Positions 2,514-43,632 of a stretch of 64,000 nucleotides of DNA are shown here, in pieces (positions within the stretch are counted from its first letter, which is position 1; each line of letters begins with the position of its first letter). Origin of the DNA: Sordariomycetes sp. S80-01Y (taxonomy: Eukaryota > Ascomycota > Sordariomycetes); NCBI GenBank assembly GCA_037042185.1, contig JAXQJY010000024.1, positions 496,001 to 560,000 on the forward strand, in the 5' to 3' direction. The position numbers and the translations under genes are program-made. Below the pieces are notes generated by a model, which worked only from the letters and a program-made list of their open reading frames with translations, did no database searches and was not told where the DNA came from.

Positions 2514-4404
2514 CATTTGGGGTGTTCCTAGAAGCCCCGGCAGCCGGTGTCATCCGTAATGATCATGAAGGCGTTTGGGTTGCATCTGACTTGTTGCTTT
2601 TCCGCGTATCAATGCCTAGCGGATCATTGTCGGCCTTACATAACATGACTTATACCTCCTGATACCACTATCAATTGTCAACCGTGATGACCAAGTTATT
2701 TGACGTGATGAGCAACACGTCTCAAGATAGCAGATCAGCTTGAACTGAGACACCAAGAAGAAAAGAAGCCAGCACTGCCACCGATGCGGTGGAAGTGACG
2801 CGAAAGCAGTCGTCAAAGGTCTCAAACATCGGCATTGGTGTCGATACCCACAGCAGTGACAGCGCGCGGCCGGTCGAGTTCCCGGTCGAGCCCAGAGACG
2901 CGGGTTGTCAGAGATGATCATGAGAGCTCATTGGTAAAGCAAGGCTGCTGCAACCCAATCGACACGATGAGAGAGCGAAAAGCAATTGATTAGCAGAAGG
3001 CGTATCTGCCGCGTAACAAAGGAGCGAGAATAGAATCGACGCGTGGAGGGAGCCACTTGTCGCAATGCGCCATCTCATGCCCAAGCTGGAAGCCACAAGA
3101 TCGTCCATGATCGCTGCGCCAGCCACAGCGTAGCATCATGGAAATTGGAGAAGCTGGCACGAGCCCCCGGGCCCCCGATGCGGACGCGAGCCCGAGTCAG
3201 TGGCATGGCATGCCGTGTTGCAGGTTCCCGCGTACGTATCACCGCAGATCAGCGGGCGGCGTCACCGTGGTCTGTGCAGCGGGAAGAAGGGATGAGCGTG
3301 GATGCAAGTCCCGTACTGGACTCCTTTTTCCCAGGGAAATTTGGAATAGGCAGCAGTCTGGGGAGAGCAGGTCCCTTGGGATCCATGATGCCGCAAAGGA
3401 TGGTGCGCGTTTTTGACATCGCGAATCAAGAGCCAAGGGCCCGGACCGCCCCCTCCGACCATCTTTGGACTCGGCGGCGCAACTCGGCGGCGCAACGCGG
3501 CGTTTATGGGGGAGCAGACGAAATCGAAAATGGCAGAGTTGGGGAAGGTGCAGGCGTGGCCGATCCTTCCCGATGGCGAATCCGGGCTGTTTGGGGGTGT
3601 TAGCGCTGTTTGCCAGGGTTTAACCATTCAGGCTGTGGGCAAACACATCCAGCATCGCGACGGGGCGTGGGCAGCAGGAAGTCGCGCGGGCAGCAACACG
3701 ACTGCTGGGAGCCTTTTTGGCCCGCAAAGAAGCTTAAAATTAAGGTTGGCCGGATGGCGATGGAGCCTCATCGACTCCCGTCAGACGGCATTCCTCTCGT
3801 GTCACCCAGGAATTGGATGACACAAGCCCAGCATGCGCATCTGGAGCTCTACCGTGAGTGATTTGGAACCTGGAATTGCTGATGAATGGAATTCCCTCGA
3901 GTGGTGTGCGGCGAGCTTGGACCGGACGCCAGCCAGCGGGCTCCATTGGCTCAGGCTCAGGCTTCCTTCCACTCGGGGCGACCGCCAAGCACTCCCCAGG
4001 GCTCCCCACGGCGCCTCAGGCCTCATCAGCGCTGAGACACGTCCAGCAGCGCCCCTGGAATCCCTGCTGCCCGTCATCTGGGCAGACGTACTCGTACCTA
4101 CAGGTACGCATCACTGCAGTCTGCGGTGCCGCTGAGAGGCCATGTGGGGGGACCGCGAAGCATCCACCTCGAGTCGCATCGGGGGGGCCACCACTGACGC
4201 AGTTGCTTGCGACTTTTAATTCCAACCCGGCCTCTTGACCTCTGCTCCTCTCCTCCCCCAAGCTTTCCCTTTGCTCTCTGCTCTCTGCTCTCCGTTGCTG
4301 CCAGCCTTTTATGCATAGATTATCCCAGGGCATGTATATCGACTACGTACCGAGACTCGGCCATTGCGACTTCGTGGACGGCGCCGACCCTCCAGACCAC
4401 CACC
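2514..4404. other. long gene-free stretch with HET-gene promoter
   Basis: About 1.9 kb without a supportable gene. It holds a 13-bp tandem direct repeat at 3470-3495 and a strongly pyrimidine-rich tract at about 4238-4300 (repeats of CTCTGCTCT). Such tracts often mark core promoters or 5' leaders in filamentous fungi, so this is the probable transcription start area of the HET gene at 4405. Confidence 0.45.
3470..3495. repeat. 13-bp tandem direct repeat (two copies)
   Basis: CTCGGCGGCGCAA occurs twice head to tail, followed by a third partial GCGGCG. It is non-coding as far as I can see, and its function is unknown. Confidence 0.7.
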
Positions 4405-6861
4405 ATGCCCGCCCGCCAGTCTCGCGGCATGAGCTTCATGAAGCGCACCCTCGACAAGATCGCCCCGAACCGCGACAAGGCTCAGTCCCAGTCCCATTCC
4501 AATAGCAAGGGTTCTTCGCAACGCGCGAAGCCTCTCACCTCGGCGTCGTCCACCACCCTGGCCAACAGCGTCTATTCGGAGAAGCTCGAGGACTTCTCCA
4601 GGACCATGGTCGGCCAGCCCACCGATGCGGACAAATACTCGGTTCTCAAGCTCAACGACAACTTGAGCGTGGCTATTGGGGATAGCTTCGAGGCGAACCC
4701 CAGTGGGCACATCGAGGCCACGGCCAAGTTCGACTATGGGTCCGTCAGGGAGCCCAAGAAGATCCGGCTGCTGCTGATCTTCCCTGCCGCGGGAAGAAAT
4801 GACATGTTGGAGACCATCATGTTCCATGCTGATCTGGACGAGGTTCCCTACCAGGCCCTGTCGCACACTTGCCTGGAAAAGGGGCGCATCAAGCATGTCC
4901 ACTGCAACGGGCGGGGTCTTGCTGTCAGCGAGAGCATGTACCAGGCCCTGGTTGATGTGCGCAACGTCGCCGAGCCGGATGCCTTCTCGATCGTCTGGGC
5001 AGAAGCCGTCTGTATCGATCAGGACGATGTGCGGGACCGTGAGAGGCATCTCCGTCTGGTCAGAGACATTTTCAGTTCGGCGCATGTCACTCTCGCTCAT
5101 CTGGGTGGAACCGAGGACATGGCCGAGCGCGCCTTTGAAACTGTCGACAAGCTTCATGAAGCCTGCAAGTACGACGAGTTCCGCGACCGTCTCGAGCAGG
5201 ATGAGATTGATCTTTCCTCGCTGTCTCATCTCTGCATTGAGGACATCAACCTCGACATCCCCCCTGAGAACCGCCTCGAGGTGACACGGCTGTTCTCGCA
5301 CCACTGGTTTGAGCGCATCTGGAACTGGCAGGAGGTCGGCCTGTCAAGGAAGGTCTGCATCATGTACGGTGGCGAGTTGAGGACTTGGGGTTACTTTGCC
5401 GACGTGGCGTGGTGCATGTACCAGCTGCGCTGGGAGACGAGCATTGGGGACGACTGTCTTGCGCCGGGACGCACAAGGGAGGAACTGAAGCACTACCACA
5501 TTCTTCATCTCGACGAACATCGAGATGGTGCTCTGCACGGCAGCACCTTCAGTCTGCTTAGTCTGTTGACCGAGTCGCGTCACTTCTCTGCCGCCAATCC
5601 CCTGGATCGCATCTTCGCACTCTACTCCCACATTGGCAACTCTCGAGAGCAAGATATCGTCGAGGCTTTCTTCGACTACAGCCTGCCTCGCCTGGACATG
5701 TACTTGAACATCACGCTCAACTGCATCCTGTCGCACCGTACGCTTGATGTGCTGCACTTGGCGCACAATAACGATGTCGCCGAAAACTGGCCTTCCTTCG
5801 TGCCGGATTTGTCGACCCGCGACAACATGCGCATCTTGGGCTCGAAGAATGGCCGTCGCACATGGGAGTACCACGCAAGTGCCGACACCGCTCCTCAGCT
5901 TACCATCCTCAACCACCCCGGTACCACGCGCGAGGGCATCCCGTGGTTCAGCGATGACGTTCACATCGTCCTCAAGGGTATCATGGTCGACGAGATTGTT
6001 GCCGTTGGCAGTGAAATGAAGGGTCCCACGCTCGGATCCAACTCTTTCCTCGCAGACTGGGTCAACACGGCTCTCATGACTGGCGATGGGGAGAAGTTCT
6101 ACACCACCCCCGAGCTGAAGCGCGCCCGTGAACTCCTTCAGTCCACAATGAAGGACCACAAACTCAACGGCGGCAAGTCAGCTGAGTCCAACGGCATGTG
6201 GGTGGCTCGGAGGACCTCCCTCGCCAGCGGTTCAAACCGTCGTCCCAGCGCCGGCGCAGAATCAAGGACGTACCTGCGCAACACCTTCGCTCCGGCCCTG
6301 ATCGAGGCCTTGCAGAAACTCGACATCGACAACGAAGCCGCTCGCGATGCGTCCGGGGACATGGACCCCCACGCCATCCTGCCACACTCCAAGCGGTATC
6401 CCGTCTGGGACATGTCTGTCGTTGAAGCATTCTGGCGCACATTGATAAAGAATCAAGACGAGAACGGCAAGGAACCAGACCCAGCGATGGGGTCTACCCA
6501 CTTCCGGCCCTGGTTCAAAGCTATGTCTGGATCTGTCTCACATATGCTCGAGGCACTCGCTCACGGTCAGAGCGACTCTGGCCCCCGGCCGGAACCTCTG
6601 TTCAACGACCTCGTGCACATATCCTGCAACGGCACGCGCATAGTACGCACCGAGAAGGGCTTCATCGGCACCGTGCCTAGGACCACCAAGAAGGGCGATC
6701 TAATCTGCGTCTTGTTTGGCGGCCAGACGCCGTTTGTCTTGAGGAGGGACCCCCAGCGGGAGGGGCTGTACCGCCTAGTGGGGGATTGCTACGTGCATGG
6801 CTTGATGCACGGAGAGGCGTTGAGCATGGATCTTGACGAGCAGAAGTTTGAGATGCATTAG
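4405..6861 (+). CDS. heterokaryon incompatibility (HET) domain protein
   Basis: Intronless, 818 residues. I chose the ATG at 4405 because it has a strong context (CACCATGCC) and follows a pyrimidine-rich leader; the frame stays open upstream to 4207. The HET domain starts near residue 148. YQALSHTCLEKG stands where the family has YxALSYxWG, followed by a CNG-GLAVSESMYQAL segment, VWAEAVCIDQDD (family: LWIDAICINQxD), an AHVTLAHLGG segment and the WFERIWNWQEV motif. The C-terminus carries the RIVRTEKGFIG...GDLICVLFGG...YVHGLMHGEAL block typical of long HET proteins. HET proteins trigger incompatibility-linked cell death after non-self recognition. The loss of the aromatic-Trp-Gly in the first motif makes this a divergent member, so activity is uncertain. 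The basic Ser-rich N-terminus (1-60) looks disordered. Confidence 0.9.
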   Translation: MPARQSRGMSFMKRTLDKIAPNRDKAQSQSHSNSKGSSQRAKPLTSASSTTLANSVYSEKLEDFSRTMVGQPTDADKYSVLKLNDNLSVAIGDSFEANPSGHIEATAKFDYGSVREPKKIRLLLIFPAAGRNDMLETIMFHADLDEVPYQALSHTCLEKGRIKHVHCNGRGLAVSESMYQALVDVRNVAEPDAFSIVWAEAVCIDQDDVRDRERHLRLVRDIFSSAHVTLAHLGGTEDMAERAFETVDKLHEACKYDEFRDRLEQDEIDLSSLSHLCIEDINLDIPPENRLEVTRLFSHHWFERIWNWQEVGLSRKVCIMYGGELRTWGYFADVAWCMYQLRWETSIGDDCLAPGRTREELKHYHILHLDEHRDGALHGSTFSLLSLLTESRHFSAANPLDRIFALYSHIGNSREQDIVEAFFDYSLPRLDMYLNITLNCILSHRTLDVLHLAHNNDVAENWPSFVPDLSTRDNMRILGSKNGRRTWEYHASADTAPQLTILNHPGTTREGIPWFSDDVHIVLKGIMVDEIVAVGSEMKGPTLGSNSFLADWVNTALMTGDGEKFYTTPELKRARELLQSTMKDHKLNGGKSAESNGMWVARRTSLASGSNRRPSAGAESRTYLRNTFAPALIEALQKLDIDNEAARDASGDMDPHAILPHSKRYPVWDMSVVEAFWRTLIKNQDENGKEPDPAMGSTHFRPWFKAMSGSVSHMLEALAHGQSDSGPRPEPLFNDLVHISCNGTRIVRTEKGFIGTVPRTTKKGDLICVLFGGQTPFVLRRDPQREGLYRLVGDCYVHGLMHGEALSMDLDEQKFEMH

Positions 6862-30521: not shown

Positions 30522-31996
30522 TCAGAAATACGTTGTCTCCGTTTCGTCGACGATTTGCACCTTAATGCACCCATTCTTCGGATCAGAGCTGAGCGTCAAC
30601 CCCTCGAGCGCCTTTTCGAGCGGGAATACATGCGACACGAGCTTCTTCACATCCACAAGTCCCCCCTCGATACAAGCAATCCCCGCCGGCCAAGTGTCTC
30701 TGTACCTATTGATGAAGCGAAGGTCAATCTATGACGGGCGTCAGTGTGGCTGTCCCTCGCGATGACCTGAGCGCGCATTGGTTGTGATCCACCAGGTCTT
30801 TGGTACACAGAGGGGTCGAAAGAGAAGGGATAGACTCAGACTCACCTCAGCCAAGCTCAGATGCATGAAGGGCAAGTTGTTCATAACCGCCTTACCCACA
30901 CCTACAACCATCAAGACTCCCCCCCTCCTGACGCTCCAGGCCGCTGTGCAGACACTGCTCTCCGCGCCCGTGCACTCCAACGCAACCCGCGGCATCTGGT
31001 ACTCGCTCTCACCAAACAACCTCTTGATCTCCTTTCCGTTTTCCTCGCTGCTCTTTGTGGTATTGAATTGGTAGGTCTTGCACTCGGGGACGATGGTCTT
31101 GGCGAACTCGAGACGCGAGGGCTCTACGTCAGTGATGACAATGGGGTGAGCGCCCGAGGCGCGTGCGGAGGATAGTGCGAGCAGTCCTATAGGCCCGGCC
31201 CCGCAGATCAGGACAGGATGGCCGAGGGTGAGGCGTGCGGAGGATATGCCGTGTAGCACGACGGAGAGGGGTTCGAGTAAGGCGCCTTCTGCGAAAGAGA
31301 CGCTGTCGGGGAGTCTGGGGCATGTCAGCCTGCCGTTCCCTGCATGCATAAGGCCGATTATGGAAAGTGACTGAGCTTACTTGTGAAGCCATTTCGCTGG
31401 ATGGACCTTGTAGCGTTGTAACGTCCCAGCATACGGGTATACGCCCGCGAACTGCACGTCCTCGCAGAGGTTGTAGCGGCCCTCGAGGCAGAGGAAGCAA
31501 CTCCCGCATGGCACGCCGGGCTCAACCGCTACGCGGTCACCTACAAGCCGTCAGTATCTCAAGCTCGTTGCGGCTAGCGATCCCAGGCATACCGGGCTTG
31601 AAGTCCTCAACACCTTCGCCACACCTCAATACCACACCTGCAGCCTCGTGTCCAATGATGCAGTCGCCTTCGAACACCAAAGACCCTATCCTCCCCGTCT
31701 TCCAGAAATGTACATCCGATCTGCCGTATCATCAGCCCCGTTTCCTTCACTGCCAACCACGGGAGGACGTACCCGCAGATTCCCGTCGCCTTGATGTGCA
31801 GCAACACCTCACCCGCTCGCGGGGCGTAGACTGGCGCTTCGGCAGCTTTGAGTTGATGATCCGCCGTCACTTGCAATGAAGGATTGGGCAGCGGCGCTGT
31901 GAGGGTACTTGGCGTCGCAGATGCCCTGACGTGTCTCTTTAGCTCCTCGACCGTAAGATGACCATTGGTCGACTGTGGCTCTGCGATGGGCGCCAT
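30522..31996 (-). CDS. zinc-dependent polyol dehydrogenase (L-arabinitol 4-/sorbitol dehydrogenase type)
   Basis: Five exons on the minus strand: 31996-31773, 31720-31593, 31540-31381, 31314-30846 and 30728-30522, giving 395 residues. All four introns (52, 52, 66, 117 bp) have GT-AG ends and keep frame. Catalytic zinc ligands are C74 (ATGICGSDVHFW), H99-E100 (CIIGHEAAG) and E185 (LLEPLSV). The structural zinc loop is C129, C132, C135 and C143. The Rossmann motif is CGAGPIG, followed by VITD with D233, which favours NAD+. RFINRYRDTWPAGI near the end is the signature region of fungal L-arabinitol dehydrogenases. The protein probably oxidises a pentitol or hexitol in the cytosol. An extended N-terminus of about 45 residues precedes the domain. 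It could be a paralogue rather than the main LAD. Confidence 0.9.
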
Positions 31997-32735
31997 TGTG
32001 ATACCGCCACACATCACTCTGAGCACAAGGAGAATGCAAGAATGTGAATTTCAGGTAGATGTACGTGGTAAAACAAAGACCACAGCTAGAACAATCCCAT
32101 CAAGAGCCCGTAGGGTCCGTCATTTTATCCCTAGGCTAAACCCGGTGCTCCCTCGCGGTGCCGTCTAGACCCTTGGGAGCGGCTCGGCTTTCCCCATGCG
32201 ATTTTCCATTAGCCTCTCAGTGGAAATGGCTACGATGGCTGCTCTCAATTGGAGAATTCTGATTTGAAGGAGATGGTCCGTTTGGAGGGACTGATAAGTC
32301 GACCCCGCAACTGTGGTGCTGTGGGCCGGCGGGTGGTTAGAGTTACCTACTTGGGTAACGTAGTCTCCCGCGAATTCCAACTGGATGACCAGCGCCTTGG
32401 CCTGGCCAGTTTATAGCGCTGTGCTTCGCCCAGACTTCTATTGCTTTTAATCTGCGATGTCCACCTCAGTTTGTTTTCCCATCTGACCGGAGACCCTTTG
32501 GCTTTTCTCCTACCGTCTTGTCTCTTGCATAAGGCAACGAGTAGGTTATGACCAAGGGGCTGTCTACCTAAGGCTCCAATGTCTTCATTGAACTACATAA
32601 CGACACCTACATATCTACACATCCAAAAAGTTGCGCCTCTCCAGGAGCGTGAGACAGAGTACACAACGAGAACGTCTCCCAGTGTGTGCCAGAAGAACAG
32701 CACGAGTCTCTGTAGAGATTTGACTTGTTATCATT
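31997..32735. other. intergenic stretch, no gene seen
   Basis: About 740 bp holding the promoter of the polyol dehydrogenase on the left and the 3' end of the HeLo-pseudokinase gene on the right. No further feature recognised. Confidence 0.4.
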
Positions 32736-34476
32736 TCAAAGAGTCTCACAGAGTGCATCTAGATACTCCAGTCCCTGGGAGACCTTCTCCATCATGAACT
32801 GCTCCTCAGCGTCATTGGCCGGCCGCTCGACAGACAAACAGAACACGACAAACTCGGCGTATCTGCTTCCCATGTAAAATTCCAGCCTTCGGTTTGCATG
32901 CTTCAATAGACGTTGGCGAACGGCGTCTGGCTGGTCCGCCATTTCTGGCGCCAGGAGAGCGCCTCTATCTATGTCTTTGGCACGTTCCCAAATACCGATC
33001 TCGAGGAGAATAACGCCCAAAGCTAGAGAGTTGTGCACGTCAGCATGGGGCACAGGAAAGGGTGCAGGCCAGGGGCCTTGACATTGCAAGCCCACAAAAC
33101 GTACCGTAGAGATCGTGGATCTTGCCGAACCTCTCGGTTGGGATACCCCACCGTGCGGGGTGACGGTAGAGATTCTGGGCATGGTCGTGTTGTTGCCGGA
33201 CACTGGAGAAGTCTGTTTCGCGGCGCGAGTACTCAAACCCAACGATCCTCGGATCCTCCAGGCTGGCCGCGGGGTTGACGGAGCTCTCATTGGCGGTCCG
33301 AGGGCTTGCTACGGACGGGAATATGGCGTTGTCGCTTCGGAGTGACTTGTGTAGCCATCCGTAGATGTGCAGCCGGCGGACGACACGAAGGAGCGCAAGG
33401 GCCAGCCGCACTCGACTGAGAAGGCGGGGACGGAGGCCCTTGCTGGACAGCAACGACGAGAGAGACACTATCTCGCTGGGATCGGCTTCGGCGGAGATGG
33501 GAAGCTGGCTGACCAGCCCGATGCGAGACTGGGCGGCGTCGTGAAAGTAACCCTCGCACTTGCAGATCTTGAGTTGAGGGTCGGCATCAGGGCCAGTGTT
33601 GAGAAGACCTGCTAGCTGGATGATCCTCTCCTGTCCAACCTTGTCTGGACCGTCGCCGTAGGATCTGTATTCAACCATGTACCACATGTCTGGCTTCCCA
33701 TCAAGGTGGCCGTACTGGATGGTGGCGCCGCTCTTGTCCACAGCCTGCTGGAAGCTCGTGCGAGCCATCTCCAAGAGCTGTGCGGATCTGCCGGGACTGG
33801 CAAGTGACGGCTCGAGTATGAGCTTCCTGATGCCGATGCCGCGGGATAGGCCCGTGTTCGCCGCGTCTGGGTCGCTCTCCAAGGGCGCAACGGCAGATAG
33901 GGACCGGAACAGCGGCAGCGGCCAGAATGCCAGCTCAACCAGCGACCCCAGCCGCTCGGTGTACTGCTCGCATTCGACGACGAGCTTCTCCATGGCCCTC
34001 TTGTCTTTGAGCACCCATGTCACCTTGCTCAGCAGGTCCGTCGCCTTCTGCCTCTCGCCAGCGCCCTTCCTGCCGAGGGCGAGCAGCATGGCCATGTTCT
34101 CCTGAGACGTGGTGCCGGCATCTCCCAGCGCGGCCACGAGCTCATCGGAGGGCGGATTCTGGAGGACGTAGCGGCGGTCCCGCGCAACGTAGTCCTGCAT
34201 CAAGCCGTAGAGCTCGCATAGAAGGCCGGCGAGGCCGTGACAGACGTGGTCAGGTAAGCTGTCGATGAGGCGGCCGGGCACGGGGGGCTTGAACTTGCCG
34301 CGCTCGAAGAGGACCTTCTCGAAGGACTCGATGCGCGAGGTCTGCACGGAGAAGCGGAGTCGGAGCTTCTCTGACTCGTGGCCGTACAGACGGAAGCCCT
34401 GCCATGTCTCGTGGATGGTTTTGCAGATGGGCTTGATGAGCACGATGGCCCCGAGGGCGAGCCCGGCGGGCTCCAT
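32736..34476 (-). CDS. HeLo-domain protein with C-terminal pseudokinase (MLKL-like architecture)
   Basis: Two exons, 34476-33105 and 33022-32736 (82-bp intron, GTACGT donor, CTCTCTAG acceptor), 552 residues. The N-terminus (1 to about 195) starts MEPAGLALGAIVLIKPICKT and continues as a helical bundle, the hallmark of the HeLo (prion-inhibition and propagation) domain. In HET-S this domain forms membrane pores. Residues about 215-550 have a kinase outline but lack the key residues. VEYR (R271) stands at the VAVK position, WLHKSLRSDN (S at the catalytic Asp) replaces HRDLKxxN, and VGFEYS replaces DFG. The spliced segment KIHDLYALGVILLEIGIW matches the kinase helix F region, which proves the junction. 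It is divergently paired with the kinase-ankyrin-TPR gene. Role inferred: cell-death effector controlled through the pseudokinase. The start follows the family's usual beginning; an in-frame ATG at 34557 would add 27 residues. Confidence 0.88.
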
Positions 34477-34919
34477 GGGAGGTGAGGAGTGGACAGAGGT
34501 TGCTTCTCCCCGCCCAGCCTCAAGACCTTGACTACTGCTATCCGGTAGAAGTAACAATGGTACTGTAGCAGAAGGAAGGCATTCGGGCGATACGACGCTA
34601 AATCTTGTGGTATGTAACTGTCATGTGCTCGTAAGCGTAACATATCAACGTGTATGCGGCTGAATTCCGCTGCAGCTCAACCCCGACAACAGCCAATAGT
34701 CTGCTCAGTTGGTGGCTGCAGAACGAGGCGCAGGGACAGAAATCCATCGACCTCGGGAAGTTAAGACCGTCCCACATACTTGAGCGCGCACAATGTTCGT
34801 TTACAAAGTCAAGAGCTGTGGATCTGAGACGTCCATGTTCACCTAGGAGTGCCGTGCGGGTCGTGTTATCACAGCCGGGACCCTAAACCCAGAGAGGGCC
34901 AACTTACGTTCACGCCAAA
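34477..34919. promoter_or_regulatory. shared 443-bp divergent promoter of the HeLo-pseudokinase and kinase-ANK-TPR genes
   Basis: The two start codons face away from each other across 443 bp with no intervening gene. A CCAAT box lies at 34693-34697 on the plus strand. No clear TATA box. The arrangement would permit co-regulation. Confidence 0.6.
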
Positions 34920-37900
34920 ATGAGCGTCGAGAGCGCTCTTTTCTCGAGTCGGACTGTGCTGTCGGACCTCTCCGACGTCTTTAGTCCTTCCAAACCCATC
35001 TCATCGGCCACCGAAGAAGGCGGAGAATCGTCCGACAATGGAGCGCCTCGTCTCCAGCCCAACTCGTCCACCTCGGGACAGGCAACGGACGATTCCAGAT
35101 CGGTTCAGCCGGAGGTCTCGCGCATTTGGAGCCTGATCTTCTCTAAAACGGAGCCAACGCCCATTGCGCCCTTGAGCATAGCGCCCCTCACGCCGGGAAA
35201 GTTGGCATCCTTCTCGGCGTCGCATTTTGAGCTCGTCCATGAAGGGGACAGGTCCACGACCTCGGAACGAGTGGGAGAAGGAGCCTGCTACCTCGTCGAG
35301 AAGCGCACGCTGTCTTCAGTTCACGGCAGTCTCGTGGTCGCCGTTAAGACACCCAAGCTCCGAGGCTCAACACCATCAAGACAGGTTGCGTCTCTGATCT
35401 TGCGGGAACTCCAGGTTCTCACCCACTCGCCCCTCCAGGCGCACCCCAATATTGCATCCATCATCGGCTATCTGCCTCATCTTGACCATGGAAGCTCCCT
35501 GGGACTGAGCATCGTGGCGGAGCTGGCGGGTCACGGGACGTTGAGAGAGTACCTCCGCCAGCCATTGACCCAAGGCGAGAGCCCGCGCTCGCTCATGGCA
35601 AAGCTGAGTCTTCTCCACGACGTGGCCAGCGGCCTCGAAGCGCTTCATGCCTGTGGAATCGTCCAAGGCGATGTCAAGACGGAGAACGTTCTGGTCTTTG
35701 CCGCCGGAGGGGGTCAGACTGGTGAGGTCGTGGCGAAACTGTCGGACTTCGGACACGCCATCATCCTTGACCGTGGGGAGCCGAGACACTATCTAGGAAC
35801 GGCAGTCCTCAACAGTCCCGAGGCGAGGCAGCGGAATAGTCTCGCCGTCGCTGACCTCTGCAAGTGCGATGTATTTTCATACGGACTGATCGTCTGGGAG
35901 ACTGTCGTCAATGGCGCTCGGTACTTATCCTGCTGTGAGGTGTCTACATCTAGCGAGCAAGATGGTGTTCTTGGCTGGCTGCAGAGCCTCCCCGAGGATG
36001 AGCTGCTTCGCCTCGCCCTCGAGTCCATCCATTATTCCCACGGCGCCTCGGAACCGCCGCTGGTTGACATTTTACGACGCCTGGTAAAGGCTTCGCTCCG
36101 CGATGACCGCAATAAGCGGAGCACGATGGGAGACATCGTCAAGACATTCCGCCGTCAAGCTTTTTTCGCGGCCATTTCTAGGTGAATTTTGAGGCCTTTC
36201 TCCGATAGAAAGCCTCCTGTACTGATAAACGTATCTTCCAGAAGTCGAAGTGCGAACAAGGGGTTCTCACCGCATCCACTCATTCAAGTGGACGAAAGGG
36301 GGCCCGGTGAGCTAGACCCCCAGGTATGGCAACGATGTGGTCCCGAATTATCATTTGCATTGCTAACATTGCCGTTCAGGATGACTTCGGCGTGTCGCCT
36401 ATGCCAGTACGGCACTCCATCATACAGCAGCTGGAAGAACTATCACGTAGTTCCCTTGGATCGTCAAGGAGCCGACAGCGTGTGTGCTTGAACCTCGCGC
36501 TCGCGTCCTTCTCCAACTTCATAGGCAAGGCAGATCCCGCGAGTGGCATGGAGAAGCTCCGAGAAGGAGCATCAATGGGCTCTGTCACAGCCCTCGCCAT
36601 CCACTGCCGACTGCGCAACGTCTTCGATGCACAAGAGGAGCTTCTTCCGAGTCTTGACCCTCACTCCGCCATGTCTGAGCTAGCCAGACAGCTCATGGCA
36701 CTTCCAGAAGACTCCGATCTCTCAACCTGGCTCCGAGCCCTGGAGAGTCACCGCCGGCGCCAGGCCTGGAAGACCAAGATCCGAGTCTCCATAGGGGATC
36801 GCTTGCTTGCAGATGGCGTGCTAATGGCGGATCTCCCAGGTGACCTGGAACGTTTGAATAACTTGGATGTCTCGAACCTGAAGATTGGCGTCGTTGGTCA
36901 GACTGAAAACATCGATGGAGAGGAGAACCCATGCTTTGAATCTCCTTTGCTGCTTGCCGTTGCCTGTCGAATTGGCCATCTCGATATTGTCCGAACACTT
37001 CTCGGCCCAAGTTTTCAACAGCAGCAGCAACATTACGGGCGTTCAAGGGAACTGGTTGCGTCCAGTCTTCTCCAAGCTTGCCGTGGTGGTCACATTGATG
37101 TTGTAGAGCACATCATAAGAAATGCCGCCGACGGTCTAGGGCCTATGTTGTGGCCAGACAACGAAACAGGCATCCATTGGCTCTTCATGTTTCCGCCCGA
37201 TGGCCAGAAAAGAGCCCTAGAACTCATGGTTGATGATGATGCTCACCACTGGCACACTGGTTTGCTCGACAGTGTTCCCGAACCCGAGGTCCGCCTCGGG
37301 CTGACGACGGTCTCGGGCACGCCAGTCGAGCTCGCCACGTCTGTCGGGGCCACTTCTACGGTAGAAATTCTCGTGGAGAAGATAAAAGCGTTGCAAGGCC
37401 AAGGTCGCATTGGCGAGATAAGCGAGAACACATTCCGCCGAGCCGTTACGAGCCACATGGCGGCTGCTGTTAGGACCTTGCTTCCCCTGGAGCTACGCCG
37501 CCGCAGAGCCAACCGGGTCGATGCGGCGCTGGCTCGGCTGAGGTTGTCCCAGGGACAGACGGAATTCGAGTCGTTTGGCATCTTTGACGTGGGTCGCTCG
37601 GTGGGATCTCTCTCGCTGGCTCTACTACATGGCTCGACGGAAGCTGTGACCAAAGCAGCGGGCGATACCATTGACGTGCTAATCAAGTCAGGGGTCGCCG
37701 TTGTCAACGACATTGTTAGCCGTCACGAGATGGGCCACACCCCGCTGGCCGACGCGGTACGCTGGGCGCCGTGCTCCTTCGATGCCGACGTTCTAGCCGC
37801 TTTTATCTCACGGGGCGCCAACTTCGGGGATATGCCCTCGGCTGTGGTCCTCTCCCGGCTTGTGGCACCAAGGCCAGGAGGCACGAAGGGGGTTGTCATG

Positions 37901-40900
37901 GGAGAACTTCTGAGAGCTGGTCTTTTGAAGATCGACCCTGTCTTGGTCTTTCAAGCCGTCCAGACGGGCGACGCCGAGATAGTAGGCGCGATCCTAGACC
38001 ACACCCCAAGTGGCATCTCGCCCAACTATGTTTTGAAGGAAGGAGATGATGCCACTGAAATCACTCTCCTACAGGCGGCGGCTCTAGTGCCAGGCGCGGC
38101 AGAGCTCGTTCAGTTGCTTCTCGATCGAGGGGCGAGTATTGACGAGACACTGGGGGGCCTCTCGCCGCTAGAGCTGGCCATCGCAAAGCCGTCCGACGCA
38201 CTGGTCATCGACGTTCTGATTGAGAGGGGGGCTTCGCTCAGGTCCTCCAACTATCCTACAGTCATCCACTTTGCCGCCAGTCTCTGGGTCACCATCAACG
38301 GTACCCATATCCTGTCGCATCTCTTGGGCTATGCACGGGTTCGGGGGATGCTGAACGCGCTACCTACAGAATTTGATGAGCAGCAGCTCTCTCCCGTTCA
38401 CATGGCCTGCTTTTCAGCAAATGTGGCAGCCATTGCTGCGCTTCTGGAGGTAGGGGTTGAGCTGCCTCATTCCAACGACACATGGGACGTGCTCACTATG
38501 AGTGTGTTCATTGGCAAACGCCCGCACATGAATGTGCTATCTCCAATCTCGGAGCAAGACGAAGATGCCATATATGATTGGAAGCTCAAGTCGGAACGAC
38601 TCATTCTCTATCTCCTTGACCGGCTTGAGCCTGGCCATGGTCGGACGCCACTCCACGTTGCCTGTCAGGTCGGAAACCTGCGTCGCGTCCGGCAACTGAT
38701 TCGGGAGGACATTGAAGCTCTGAACGCTCAGGACGCTAACGGCAGTCTTCCAGTGGACTTCATCGAAGATGCCAACGCGCTTGAGGCACAACAGCTGACC
38801 CGAGAGGATATCACGGAACATACAGTTGCCAATGCTCGGCGGGTCTACGAATGCGTTGAAACCGCCCTGCGAGACGAGATTGCCGCTGCAGAAAGAGACA
38901 TGGAACAACAATTAGAGGCTACTTTCAAGATGCTTGATCTGGGACAGCATGATGCTACCGTACCTGAATCGCCCCAAGGCCCGATGTTCGATATGACATC
39001 TGAATCAGTCGATACCTCTGTTGCGGATGCAGAAAGAGTGATAAGTTCGTTCTGGAAGCTCTTGGAGGAGGCGGAAGTAGAGATGACGGATTCAGCTCTG
39101 GAAATGTTCGTACCGAGCCCAGATGAGGGCGACAAGGAAGGACTCGCAACGCTCAATCAGTGCGAAACGGTCATTCTCGATGGGTATGACGGGCCGGAAG
39201 ATGTCCTGCCCAAGGCGAAAAGCCTCCTTGACAGAAAGACCCAAGAGCTTGGTGAGCTGCATGAAGACACCCTGGAGGCGACCGAGGTTGTCGTGGACCT
39301 GCTGGGGATTCTCAACAAACAGGAAGAAGTCTCTGAAATGGTAAACCAGCTGTTAGAGCGGCGCAGACTCAGCCTTCCCGAGAATGATCCACGGATCTAC
39401 TACACGTGGCGAGACCGTATTATTGTGCTTATGAACGGCGGCCAAGGCGAAGATGCCGTTCGGGAGACACACGAGGCTGTAGCTGATGCAAGTCGCTGCT
39501 TGGGAAACTCGCACACGGCCTATTTGACATTCGTGCCGACACTGGCAGCGTTGAAATGCGTTGAAGGCAAATACGACGAATGTGTGTCAATGAATAGGCG
39601 GCTCTTGGAGACTCTGAAGGCCCCAGAGTTTCAGAGCCGGCGTGGGATCGGGGTCAGGTCTGAGGCTGTGGTGCACCTATGTTATCACTCTATGAACCAG
39701 GGTGATCTAGACGGCATCAAACGAGGAATCGACGGCTGCCTGGACTGTCTGGCCAGTGCTGACCCCAAAGACTTCCTCGCCAGGTTCGACGCGGCTGTCA
39801 GCCTCGCCCGTACCGCGGAGCAGGTCGAAGCCGGTCTCGCCAATGACATGTGGACAAGACTAATCCAAGTCTGCGCAAGCCGCCTCGCGCCCCGAAGTCA
39901 CTGCGAGCTTGAGGTGCGCCGACACCTTGCGGCACAGTTGATGGCCCGCGACATGTTTGAAGATGCGCGGGTTCAATACCAGAAGCTCATCGAGGATTTG
40001 ATTCTGCGAAAGGGCCCGAAACATCTCGAGACATTACTCGTTATCGTCGATGACGCTCGTGCTCTTCACAAACAGCGCCTTACCCCGGCCGCCCTTCAGC
40101 TCCTCCGCCCGGCAATACGAGAACTTGAAGATAGACATCCCATGGGGACCGGTGATGAGCACACCCTCCGAGCAAAGACACTGCTAGCGGAAATGCTTCT
40201 GGAGCAGGAAGATATCGACGACTGGGAGCCTGTGGCCCGTGAAGTGGCCAGCGGGTACGCGCGACTGGACAGTAAGAGCGACGCAGCGGTGGACGCGAAA
40301 CGTGCTCTGGCTACTACGCTGGGCAGAACGGAGCGGGCTTCCGAGGCAGCTCAGATAGCTCAAGAATGCCTGGAGTTAACGCAAGAGGTGCATGGCGAGA
40401 ACCATGACCGGACGCTGGCCGTTGCCGGCGAGGTGCAACTCTATTTGACTGGCTGCGGACGGTGGGCAGATAGTGTAGCCATATGCGAGCGAGCGCTGGC
40501 TATTGCTAAGGCTGTCTGTGGAGAGTCTAGCAGCCAAGTCGCGGACTGGCTGTATCTTCTAGGGACATCTTTGGGCTTGGCCGAGAGGGAAGGGGGCCTC
40601 GACAAACTGCTCCAGTCAATTGATCTGGCCGTGAAGCTGAACGGTGGAGTGCACAGCCGTTCGTCCCTGACGAGCATGTGGTCCGCGGCCGTCCACATGA
40701 GGGAGAAGACGCCCGCGAAGGCTCTCGAGATGCTGACGGAGGCCCTCGGCTCCTGCAAAGATGTCATCACGGACGAGCCGCACAGTCTGAAAGTCCGCAT
40801 CCGCACAGACGTCGGCCGTTGCTACATCGACTTGGAGCAGTACGAAGATGCCTTTGCTCATCTCGAGCAGGCGCATCGCGAATCGAGACAGCTCTGGGGA

Positions 40901-41980
40901 GACTCGAGTAAAGAGACCATTTCTGCCGCCGAATCTCTCGTAACGGTGCTTTCGTTCCTCGAAAGATACAAGGAAGCCCTCCCGCTCGCACACGAGGTGC
41001 TTGAGTACGCGGAATCGACGGCCGGGTCGTCTGACAATGACACCATACTCGCCGCGAGCAACCTCGCGCACTTGTACTTTGCGTTGGATAAATGCTCCGC
41101 CGCCGAGCGCCTCTGGGAGCAAGCTCTCAAAGGATTAGCCGCGCAAGGCGAAGCTGCCGACCAGGACAAGGTCGCGAGTTGTCGTCACAACCACGCGCTG
41201 GCCCTCATCGGCATCTTGGACTTTGAAGCCGCCCGAGATCTCTTAGCTTTGTCGGTTGATCACTATAGCCAGGCAAAGGGGCCGGACGCTAAGGAAACGC
41301 TGACTACATCGATAACAAGGGCACAAGTCGAGCGCCTCTTGGAGAACCCTGCTGCTGCCGAGACCATTCTTCTCACCGTCATGGACGCAGCCAGGAAGGA
41401 TACCAATCTCTCTGAAGTCCTTGAGAACGCCGAAGCAAGGCTGGGTGGCTTGTGGGTTGAAATGGGTCGATACGAAGACGCTGAAGAGGTGCTGGCTAAA
41501 GCTGTCGAACGAAAAGGGGATGACTTTACGGCTCGGGCCCAGCTTTGCATGGTCTACAAGAAGCAAATGAAGTACGACGAAGCCGAGGAGCAAGCTGTCA
41601 TTCTCCTCTCGATGGTGCCGGAGCACCTCGATGAGCAGGCCATAGATGCTGAGCTCCGCCTGCTGAGACTGTACATGGATACGGGCGACAGCGATCACGC
41701 CCAAGCGTGGGCGGACGCGCTCTTTGTCCGCATGAAGGGCCTTACCGACTATCAAGGCAACCCTCTCGATCTCTTGAGGGCCTTGGAGAGTCTGATCGAA
41801 TATTTTGAACAGACGCAAGACGAAGAGCGATTATTCGAGGCGCGTTTGCTTGTGAGTCGCGAATCTTCTTATATCACGGCACTTTATTCTATTGTTCTTC
41901 ACTTTTTGGTCTTGATATTTGAGTCTCTGCCATTCCTTCTTCAGTCGAAGCGAACAAAAGAAGCCTTGGGCAAATACTAA
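34920..41980 (+). CDS. giant protein kinase - ankyrin - TPR protein
   Basis: Four exons, 34920-36181, 36242-36323, 36380-41851 and 41945-41980, give 2,283 residues. Introns are 60, 56 and 93 bp, with CTGAT and GCTAAC branches; phases match exactly. Kinase domain at about 115-440: GEGACYLV loop, K143 (VVAVK), E163, D251 and N256 (VQGDVKTEN), D277-F-G, and SPEA. All catalytic residues are present, so it should be active. Ankyrin-like repeats fill about 630-1240 (ESPLLLAVACRIGHLDIV; GRTPLHVACQVGNLRRV). TPR-like helices run from about 1380 to the end (for example NLAHLYFALDKCSAAERLWEQAL). The first 110 residues are Ser-rich and disordered. No NACHT or NB-ARC domain. An ATG at 36326 lies within intron 2 and is not the start. 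Inferred role: sensor kinase acting on the neighbouring HeLo-pseudokinase. Confidence 0.85.
41852..41944 (+). other. 93-bp terminal intron of the kinase-ANK-TPR gene, readable in frame
   Basis: It has a GTGAGT donor, a pyrimidine-rich end and CTTCAG acceptor. Its length is a multiple of three and it contains no stop. If retained, it would insert 31 residues including the hydrophobic run ALYSIVLHFLVLIFESLPFL near the C-terminus. The pyrimidine bias of an intron alone can produce such a run. Confidence 0.65.
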
Positions 41981-42215: not shown

Positions 42216-43248
42216 TCATGCGAAGATGCGCAATGGGTGGTTGGGCAGGTAAGTGCCCGGGTCGTTGAACCTCAAGCCCCTGTCCAGTGCCGATATCTGC
42301 CTCATCTCCTCCGAGCTCAAGTCAAAAGCCAGGACATCCAGATTCTGTGCTAGTCGTCCGGGGTTTTTACTCTTGGGAATCACTGCGATGCCCCGCTGGG
42401 TGGCCCACCTCAACAGCACCTGCGCGGCAGTCTTGTCGTGTTTGGTAGCAATGCCCTTGATGAGGTCGCTGTCCATCAACAAAGGCGTTTCTCCAGCCTT
42501 CTCCCCGAAAATGCCATTCAATTCAACAAAGCTTTGAGGTCCGAATGACGAGTAGGCTGTCACGGCGATGCCGTTCTCCTGCGCCATCGCCACGAGGCTG
42601 GGCTGGACGAGGTAAGGGTGGTGCTCGATTTGCAGGGCCGAGACGGGGTGGCGAGCGTAGGACTGCAGGTCGTACAGAGACTGGGTGCTGAAGTTGGAGA
42701 CGCCAATTGAGCGGGCGATGCCAGAATCAACAGCAGCTTCCAAGGCTTCCCATGTCTCGCGGATGGGGACCTTGGCAAGAGACACAGTGCCCTTGTCATC
42801 CATCCACCAGGCCGGGTATCGCCTCTCCTCGGGAGAGATGTATTCCAGCGCGACAGGGAAGTGTATCAGGTACAAGTCGATGTATCCCAAGCCCCAAGCC
42901 TGGTTCTGTGCCTTGGCCATCGCAATAGCGTGCTCGCGCTTGTGGTAGTTGTTCCAAAGCTTGGTAGTGACGAAAATATCCTCGCGCTTGACTAGGCCGT
43001 CGGATATGGCTCTCTGGATGCCCTCTCCCGCCTCCTTTTCGTTCTGGTAGTCGTACGCGCCATCGAAGCAACGGTAGCCGGCCTTAATAGCCTGTAGTTG
43101 GTCAGAATCGAGCACGTCGTCCCAAGACTTTTGGATGACAAACATTATAGACGGTATCAGCAGCCTGGTGAGCGGGAACCTTCCAGAGTCCGAAGCCCAC
43201 AAGGGGCATCTGGTATCCGGAGGCAAGCTTGACGGTAGACTGGACCAT
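42216..43248 (-). CDS. xyl1: xylose reductase-type aldo-keto reductase
   Basis: Two exons, 43248-43144 and 43091-42216 (52-bp intron, donor GTTTGT, CTACAG acceptor), 326 residues, the usual length for fungal D-xylose reductases. The N-terminus [20 protein letters not shown] closely follows the family consensus. The tetrad is D45 ([11 protein letters not shown]), Y50, K79 (TTKLW) and H112 (YLIHFP). The [11 protein letters not shown] stretch is xylose-reductase-like. The coenzyme motif [14 protein letters not shown] has K277 where xylose reductases usually have Asn (KSN), followed by R281. The protein would reduce xylose or arabinose to the pentitol with NAD(P)H in the cytosol. It is divergent from the Zn2Cys6 regulator at 43633 and close to a polyol dehydrogenase, which fits pentose catabolism. 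Confidence 0.88.
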
Positions 43249-43632
43249 GTTGAAGCACACTTCTAGTGTATTGATGTTTGAATGATGCTGAACATCTCGG
43301 AGGCACAGGCATGTGAGCGCAAGCGCCTTGCCCTTTATCAATCTTCCACAGACTCACCCACTCTCTCCATCGCCTGCAAGGAGTCTTGACTTGTCACAAG
43401 TATCGTCAATGCCCCGAGTGCTTAATACTGCCTAATCAGGTAGCCTTGGCAGGCGTGTAGTGGGCTTCCCCACAGCGCGCCTCATTGGCTGTGCCCGCGC
43501 GGGTCTAAATGGGGAGGGGATGGCTCAACTTACCGTCTTGAGTCAAGTAAAGTTCCCGGTTCTCCCCTTCAATTGCTCCATCTTTCCACAAGATTGTCTC
43601 TGTCGACTGAACGCAGTATCTGCAATGCGATC
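43249..43632. promoter_or_regulatory. divergent promoter between xylose reductase and Zn2Cys6 regulator
   Basis: 384 bp separate the two start codons. It contains an inverted CCAAT box (ATTGG, 43484-43488) and CCCCAC at 43468-43473, which on the minus strand reads GTGGGG and fits the CreA carbon-repressor consensus SYGGRG. Single short matches like these are weak evidence. Confidence 0.4.

Follow-up and report, generated by a model that had tools for sequence, protein, structure and literature searches.

A head-to-head HeLo-pseudokinase and kinase-ankyrin-TPR gene pair in Sordariomycetes sp. S80-01Y as a possible RIPK3/MLKL-like cell-death module in a fungus

In the 64,000-nucleotide stretch of Sordariomycetes sp. 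S80-01Y DNA analysed here (the window, C7:496001-560000 of a genome of 30.87 Mb in 16 contigs), two genes of fungal structure and with fungal homologues are transcribed divergently from start codons 443 bp apart, the distance given in a preliminary description of the locus. Gene A encodes a HeLo domain fused to a kinase fold that has lost catalytic residues, and gene B encodes a kinase with a complete set of catalytic residues followed by ankyrin and TPR repeats (Table 1). The preliminary description had likened the two genes to fungal receptor-effector pairs, and a pair of a live receptor kinase with a HeLo-pseudokinase effector is now well supported: the pairing recurs at four loci and parallels pairs of HeLo genes with NOD-like receptor (NLR)-type genes in the same genome.

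The two exons of gene A join at DLYALGVILLEIGIW, and homologues align through this junction. The N-terminus exceeds the Pfam cut-off for HeLo (PF14479; 36.9 against 23.2 bits, E 4.5e-9) and matches the HET-s N-terminal domain structure 2wvo in a profile comparison (E 4.6e-14), and residues 1-192 were modelled as a HeLo-like helical bundle. The earlier assignment of a HeLo-type N-terminus is thereby confirmed, with a firm sequence match and soft structural scores, and the refuting outcome named in advance, an N-terminal domain that fails to model as a HeLo bundle, did not occur. The Pfam scan (E<=0.001, the threshold of all Pfam negatives below) returned no kinase family for gene A; the predicted model of its homologue P0004 shows a kinase fold, and gene A itself ends in its pseudokinase. 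Gene A reads VEYR at beta-3, HKSLRSDN in the catalytic loop (HKS for HRD) and GFE for DFG, with RETDFSS at the activation-loop position. Of the residues first described as missing, the catalytic Asp and DFG are indeed lost; the lack of Lys holds for gene A and not for several relatives, which have VEYK, LEWK or LEKK at beta-3. Judging from these motifs, the HeLo-pseudokinase family appears often to retain the beta-3 Lys, as MLKL does (PMC6013482). When exon 1 was aligned with 19 homologues, GFE was found in 15 of the 20 rows and Ser or Thr at +6 after GFE in 17. DUF7580 (PF24476), on which a literature search found nothing, was not matched by gene A; the homologue P0009 reached 30.9 against 27 bits, and the paralogues on contigs C14 and C15 scored over the cut-off and those on C10 and C16 under it.

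Gene B has the 2,283 aa given originally and a Pkinase match at residues 115-408 (E 1.5e-20, Pfam). The positions K143, E163, D251 and N256 stand as first described, and the DFG Asp had to be corrected from D277 to D276. HRD is replaced by QGD (His to Gln) and the catalytic residues are all present, and on this basis gene B is predicted to be a catalytically complete, active kinase. Its final intron (41852-41944, 93 nt) is in frame and stop-free, so that the protein would be 31 residues longer near its C-terminus if the intron were kept; splice signals suggest that it is spliced out. The ankyrin and TPR repeats are sensor repeats of the type found in fungal NLRs. Because the Pfam scan showed no RHIM family, gene B was not classed as RIPK3, which it resembles only in its proposed job, and because the scan showed neither NACHT nor NB-ARC, it was not classed as an NLR, though it occupies the place of one.

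Genome searches scored the best candidates only, and all gene counts are lower bounds. At least 15 HeLo matches were obtained genome-wide and read as 13 genes. Gene A as query detected four more HeLo-pseudokinase genes (on C14, C15, C16 and C10) and, more distantly, a frame of 1221 aa on C8, and a DUF7580 search added C14:431 kb and C16:870 kb, both without a HeLo match. Gene B and its relatives as queries retrieved kindred kinases on C14, C16 and C10, and the remaining kinases of the genome were much weaker (at most 34 bits against the C16 kinase). A kinase-ankyrin gene adjoins four of the five HeLo-pseudokinase genes found, three times head to head and once tail to tail; the one on C16 is a single 1421-aa frame. 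Overlaying 140 Pkinase positions on 59 ankyrin positions (about one per gene, from the matches listed of 166) yielded at least three kinase-ankyrin genes, all of them paired, that of the window being the fourth. The beta-3 Lys, the alpha-C Glu, the catalytic Asp, the Asn and the DFG Asp are kept in all four partner kinases, which deviate in QGD (window) and DFC (C10), and none of the five HeLo-pseudokinases retains the HRD Asp or DFG. Pairwise identity is 30-38% between the kinase domains of the four loci (E 1.4e-13 or better; the C10 sequence was joined by eye for this comparison) and 26-33% between the pseudokinase domains of the five. The HeLo half on C14 (L001:4441-5996, C14:2534940-2536495) is split over two frames, and HeLo profile positions ~88-155 are missing from it. 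In the 3'-terminal frame of the C10 kinase-ankyrin gene (L007:7630-8238, plus), a WW domain was recognised by eye, and a housekeeping-type kinase frame is situated 5 kb away from the HeLo gene on C16.

Table 1. Features of the gene pair (positions in the window) and of the corresponding pairs on other contigs.
Feature	Position	Strand	Details and basis
Gene A	32736-34476	minus	spliced model, 552 aa, ATG at 34476
Gene A exon 1 (HeLo and most of pseudokinase, codons 1 to ~458)	33105..34476	minus	spliced model, open reading frame (ORF) list
Gene A intron, 82 nt, GT-AG (GTACGT...CTAG)	33023..33104	minus	spliced model
Gene A exon 2 (end of pseudokinase C-lobe)	32736..33022	minus	stop codon at 32736-32738
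HeLo domain PF14479, residues 23-181	33934..34410	minus	Pfam, HET-s profile match, model
Gene A pseudokinase region (approximate ends, intron included)	32760..33729	minus	alignments, motif tables, kinase-fold model of homologue P0004
Intergenic region, 443 bp between start codons	34477..34919	.	gene models
Gene B	34920-41980	plus	2283 aa, ATG at 34920, introns 60, 56, 93 nt
Gene B exon 1 (N-terminal extension, then the kinase domain)	34920..36181	plus	spliced model
Active-looking kinase domain, K143, E163, D251, N256, D276	35262..36143	plus	sequence, Pfam
Gene B exon 2	36242..36323	plus	spliced model
Gene B exon 3 (linker followed by ankyrin and TPR repeats)	36380..41851	plus	spliced model, Pfam
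Ankyrin-repeat region (approximate ends, by eye)	36953..38755	plus	Pfam Ank families
TPR region (approximate ends)	40304..41590	plus	Pfam TPR_12, TPR_10, TPR_19
Gene B exon 4 with the stop codon	41945..41980	plus	spliced model; stop from ORF list
C14 pair	C14:2534.9-2541.0 kb	HeLo-pseudokinase minus, kinase-ankyrin plus	start codons separated by 257 bp (ORF arithmetic)
C16 pair	C16:3490.1-3496.5 kb	HeLo-pseudokinase minus, kinase-ankyrin plus	347 bp apart
C10 pair	C10:2911.5-2918.2 kb	kinase-ankyrin plus, HeLo-pseudokinase minus	tail-to-tail

Coincidental neighbours were set aside, since the pairing recurs in genome-wide searches and the chance adjacency of four such pairs is negligible (~1e-12, calculated by hand with ~10,000 genes assumed). 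That a shared origin in one duplicated block is all that links the neighbours, with no function in common, seems scarcely probable to us: the partner kinases of C14, C16 and the window are mutual best matches in the genome and could be block copies, but domain identity between the loci is only 26-38%, the flanking frames look unlike, adjacency was kept despite the changed orientation on C10, and no kinase-ankyrin gene away from a HeLo-pseudokinase gene was found among the best-scoring candidates genome-wide. Descent from a duplicated pair, the serious alternative to chance, would still need linkage kept through deep divergence and one orientation change. The pseudokinase as a recent copy of its partner kinase was also rejected, as the similarity between the two is only weak (best E 1.4e-6, C14 against C14; window kinase against window pseudokinase, E 4).

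The neighbourhoods of the other HeLo genes, examined in 10-kb stretches, bear on the position that gene B occupies. At C3:296.7 kb and C15:324.6 kb, genes with a HeLo domain alone stand head to head with NB-ARC/TPR-type genes (NB-ARC 26.3 bits in L013 and 22.6 in L014, cut-off 23.5), and the HeLo gene at C14:2111 kb stands head to head with an NPHP3_N (NACHT-type)-WD40 gene. Two more HeLo frames, at C14:1571 and C14:2495 kb, overlap with frames of the NACHT-ankyrin type (NACHT by eye, ankyrin by profile), and for the HeLo genes at C7:819, C9:337 and C3:283 kb no NLR was seen by eye among frames of at least 240 aa. The 13 HeLo genes consist of four paired and one unpaired HeLo-pseudokinase genes, three NLR-type pairs, two overlapping genes and three without an NLR. 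As three HeLo genes are head to head with NLR-type genes, the kinase-ankyrin gene appears to fill the receptor slot. A HeLo effector gene likewise neighbours a receptor gene with repeats in the fungal two-gene clusters NWD2/HET-S, PNT1/HELLP and FNT1/HELLF, from which the present pair differs in that a kinase replaces the NACHT/NB-ARC switch and a pseudokinase the amyloid tail. Fungal gasdermin/protease clusters similarly place a repeat-fused (ANK/TPR/WD) enzyme beside a pore-forming protein (PMC12881547), with a protease in place of the kinase and a gasdermin in place of the HeLo bundle.

In the described fungal clusters of both the HeLo/NLR and the gasdermin/protease type, the neighbour activates the effector (PMC10197012, PMC12881547), which argues against the idea that gene B acts as a guard or antidote that restrains gene A at rest and whose loss frees it. 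We regard such restraint as very unlikely, even if the close head-to-head starts would permit co-expression of an effector with its control partner and the present evidence does not fix the sign of the effect of B on A. Fungal HeLo effectors are classically fired by amyloid templating (PMC9815663, PMC7885112), and templating between short motifs, as in NWD2/HET-S, might likewise carry the signal here, with the kinase domains in a secondary role. Against this, gene A terminates in its pseudokinase, and the N-termini of the four partner kinases, compared only with each other, have no significant motif in common (the best, between window and C16, covers 17 residues at 59%, E 0.17-0.24); amyloid templating is in our view the most improbable of the explanations considered.

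The domain layout, the live/dead split in all four pairs and the receptor-like position support an activation of A by B. With moderate confidence, we favour a phosphorylation-driven release of the HeLo bundle of gene A by gene B, which would constitute a death module similar to RIPK3-MLKL. Gene B would be a cytosolic receptor kinase, kept inactive or monomeric by its ankyrin and TPR repeats until these encounter a ligand or a self protein that has been altered. The kinase would then engage, and probably phosphorylate, the pseudokinase of gene A, most likely within the Ser/Thr-bearing activation-loop segment RETDFSS. Phosphorylation would lift the inhibition of the N-terminal HeLo bundle, and its hydrophobic first helix would insert in the plasma membrane, with pore formation and death of the cell or hyphal compartment as the presumed outcome. 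The biological role may be allorecognition or defence; repeat-bearing fungal receptors are usually assigned roles in allorecognition or in antiviral or antibacterial defence (PMC12881547, PMC10197012). The two proteins could also form a receptor-effector pair that signals by binding, as a heterodimer or by induced proximity, without phosphorylation, the pseudokinase perhaps also being a bait for a kinase-targeting factor of a pathogen. Pairing and domain layout fit equally well with this, Ser/Thr at +6 is absent from three of the four paralogues of gene A, and kinase domains of Sordariales NLRs were proposed to be decoys (PMC12258605). On the other hand, the catalytic residues kept in all four partner kinases would be superfluous in a purely structural partner, and we consider signalling by binding a possible but unlikely alternative.

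Activation by phosphorylation has its model in human MLKL, which has HGK for HRD and GFE for DFG, retains the VAIK lysine and is phosphorylated by RIPK3 at T357/S358, +6 and +7 from E351 of GFE (PMC5104457, PMC6013482). Gene A resembles MLKL in the GFE at the place of DFG, in the loss of the HRD Asp and, in the window's homologue group, in a Ser/Thr a few residues past GFE, and the pair resembles RIPK3-MLKL in the live kinase partner and in the fusion of a helical-bundle N-terminus to a pseudokinase. The RIPK3/MLKL-like module put forward in the preliminary description fits the layout of gene A and, for gene B, the proposed job only: gene B bears ankyrin and TPR repeats, and the Pfam scan gave it no RHIM. 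RIPK3 has a RHIM, and RIPK3 and MLKL are not known to be genomic neighbours. The MLKL-like combination of GFE and Ser/Thr at +6 seems, from the alignments, to be confined to the homologue group of the window's gene A, without the paralogues, and is possibly convergent. For the kinase part, the best 60 of the 236 sequence matches are led by CLK and RAF kinases; in the structural comparison of the kinase fold the matches listed were tied and MLKL was not among the 50 listed, and RIPK3 was not among the matches listed there or in one further comparison. It is improbable, in our assessment, that fungi have a kinase-to-pseudokinase necroptosis axis which shares its ancestral executioner with MLKL, with HeLo-GFE-pseudokinases as the fungal MLKL orthologues and kinase-ankyrin receptors as their RIPK-like activators; in that case, control by amyloids and by NLRs would represent other routes beside this axis. 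A review of fungal amyloid signalling points out that the motifs used there and the RHIM of mammals operate at steps that are not equivalent (PMC5485727). According to its abstract, the plant MLKL-type protein Pm13 (PMC10951266) also combines an N-terminal bundle with a kinase-like domain; it comes from another kingdom.

HeLo-pseudokinase homologues (19 matches) were found in Decorospora, Fusarium, Penicillium and other sources. The repeat part of gene B has at least four close relatives, 53-99% identical (~8000 candidates scored), and at least 14 more distant kinase proteins, mostly of the kinase-ankyrin type, occur in several fungi and other sources. The HeLo-pseudokinase P0003 and the gene B homologue P0023 come from the same source, and the longest contig given for each measures 26,643 bases; this single coincidence suggests that they lie on the same contig and that the same pair exists in another fungus. 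P0009 and P0032 of Penicillium canariense were rejected as a pair, their contigs being unequal in size.

Several observations weigh against a phosphorylation-triggered pair of the kind we favour. None of the four paralogues of gene A within the genome has GFE, and only the one on C16 has Ser/Thr at +6. MLKL was not among the best 60 of the 236 sequence matches. No Pkinase match was found within 6.5 kb of the C15 HeLo-pseudokinase gene, and the homologues from Decorospora, Fusarium and Penicillium had no demonstrable partner in kinase searches (~8000 candidates each). In a first, shorter alignment, the C14 kinase had Arg at beta-3, and Lys was aligned with a longer cut. The HeLo half on C14 has a frame change for which no canonical intron accounts; this HeLo-pseudokinase gene, ~30 kb from the contig end, is possibly a decaying effector. 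The four pairs may also derive from one ancestral pair by block duplication and would then not be independent tests. Pairwise scores did not demonstrate that the gene trees of the two partners agree.

The novelty of the pairing, as claimed at first, has to be divided between the two genes. A 2025 review notes HELL domains in kinase/pseudokinase proteins, reminiscent of MLKL (PMC12881547); the architecture in its Fig. 6 legend is that of gene A with HELL in place of HeLo, and the accessible part of the review names no adjacent kinase-repeat receptor. Proteins of the gene A kind are thus not new, and the adjacent kinase-repeat partner looks undescribed: no description was found in the accessible literature, with preprints and most subscription papers outside this scope. 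Fungal HeLo proteins share the killer bundle of MLKL, and the literature examined contained no fungal kinase step. A recurring pair of a live kinase with a dead-kinase HeLo protein would supply such a step, would define a class of fungal receptors in which a kinase replaces the NOD switch, and would open the evolutionary connection of necroptosis with fungal incompatibility to experiments in a model fungus.

The searches also brought up other genes of interest. The two HeLo/NB-ARC-TPR pairs on C3 and C15 (L013 and L014) look very similar by eye, apparently because a classical HeLo/NLR unit was recently duplicated, and a Pkinase match (G000, C3:302969-303484) lies 6.3 kb from the C3:296.7-kb HeLo gene. 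The 1221-aa frame on C8 (L009:3904-7566, C8:143903-147565, minus) matches HeLo at the Pfam cut-off (23.2 bits); part of it resembles a pseudokinase and is related to gene A, and its C-terminal GDSG segment looks protease-like by eye. Judged by these segments, it is a possible HeLo-pseudokinase-protease fusion. The DUF7580 matches in L021:3642-7163 (C14:429.6-433.2 kb, minus) lie beside a frame that by eye resembles a subtilisin-like protease, with ankyrin repeats adjacent. Within the window, an 887-aa HET-domain (PF06985) frame at 4198-6858 (plus), ~26 kb from the pair, represents another incompatibility-type gene. Genes A and B are flanked by a zinc-binding dehydrogenase frame (30741-32050, minus) and an aldo-keto reductase gene (42216-43262, minus), as if the pair had been inserted in a small cluster for sugar or alcohol metabolism.

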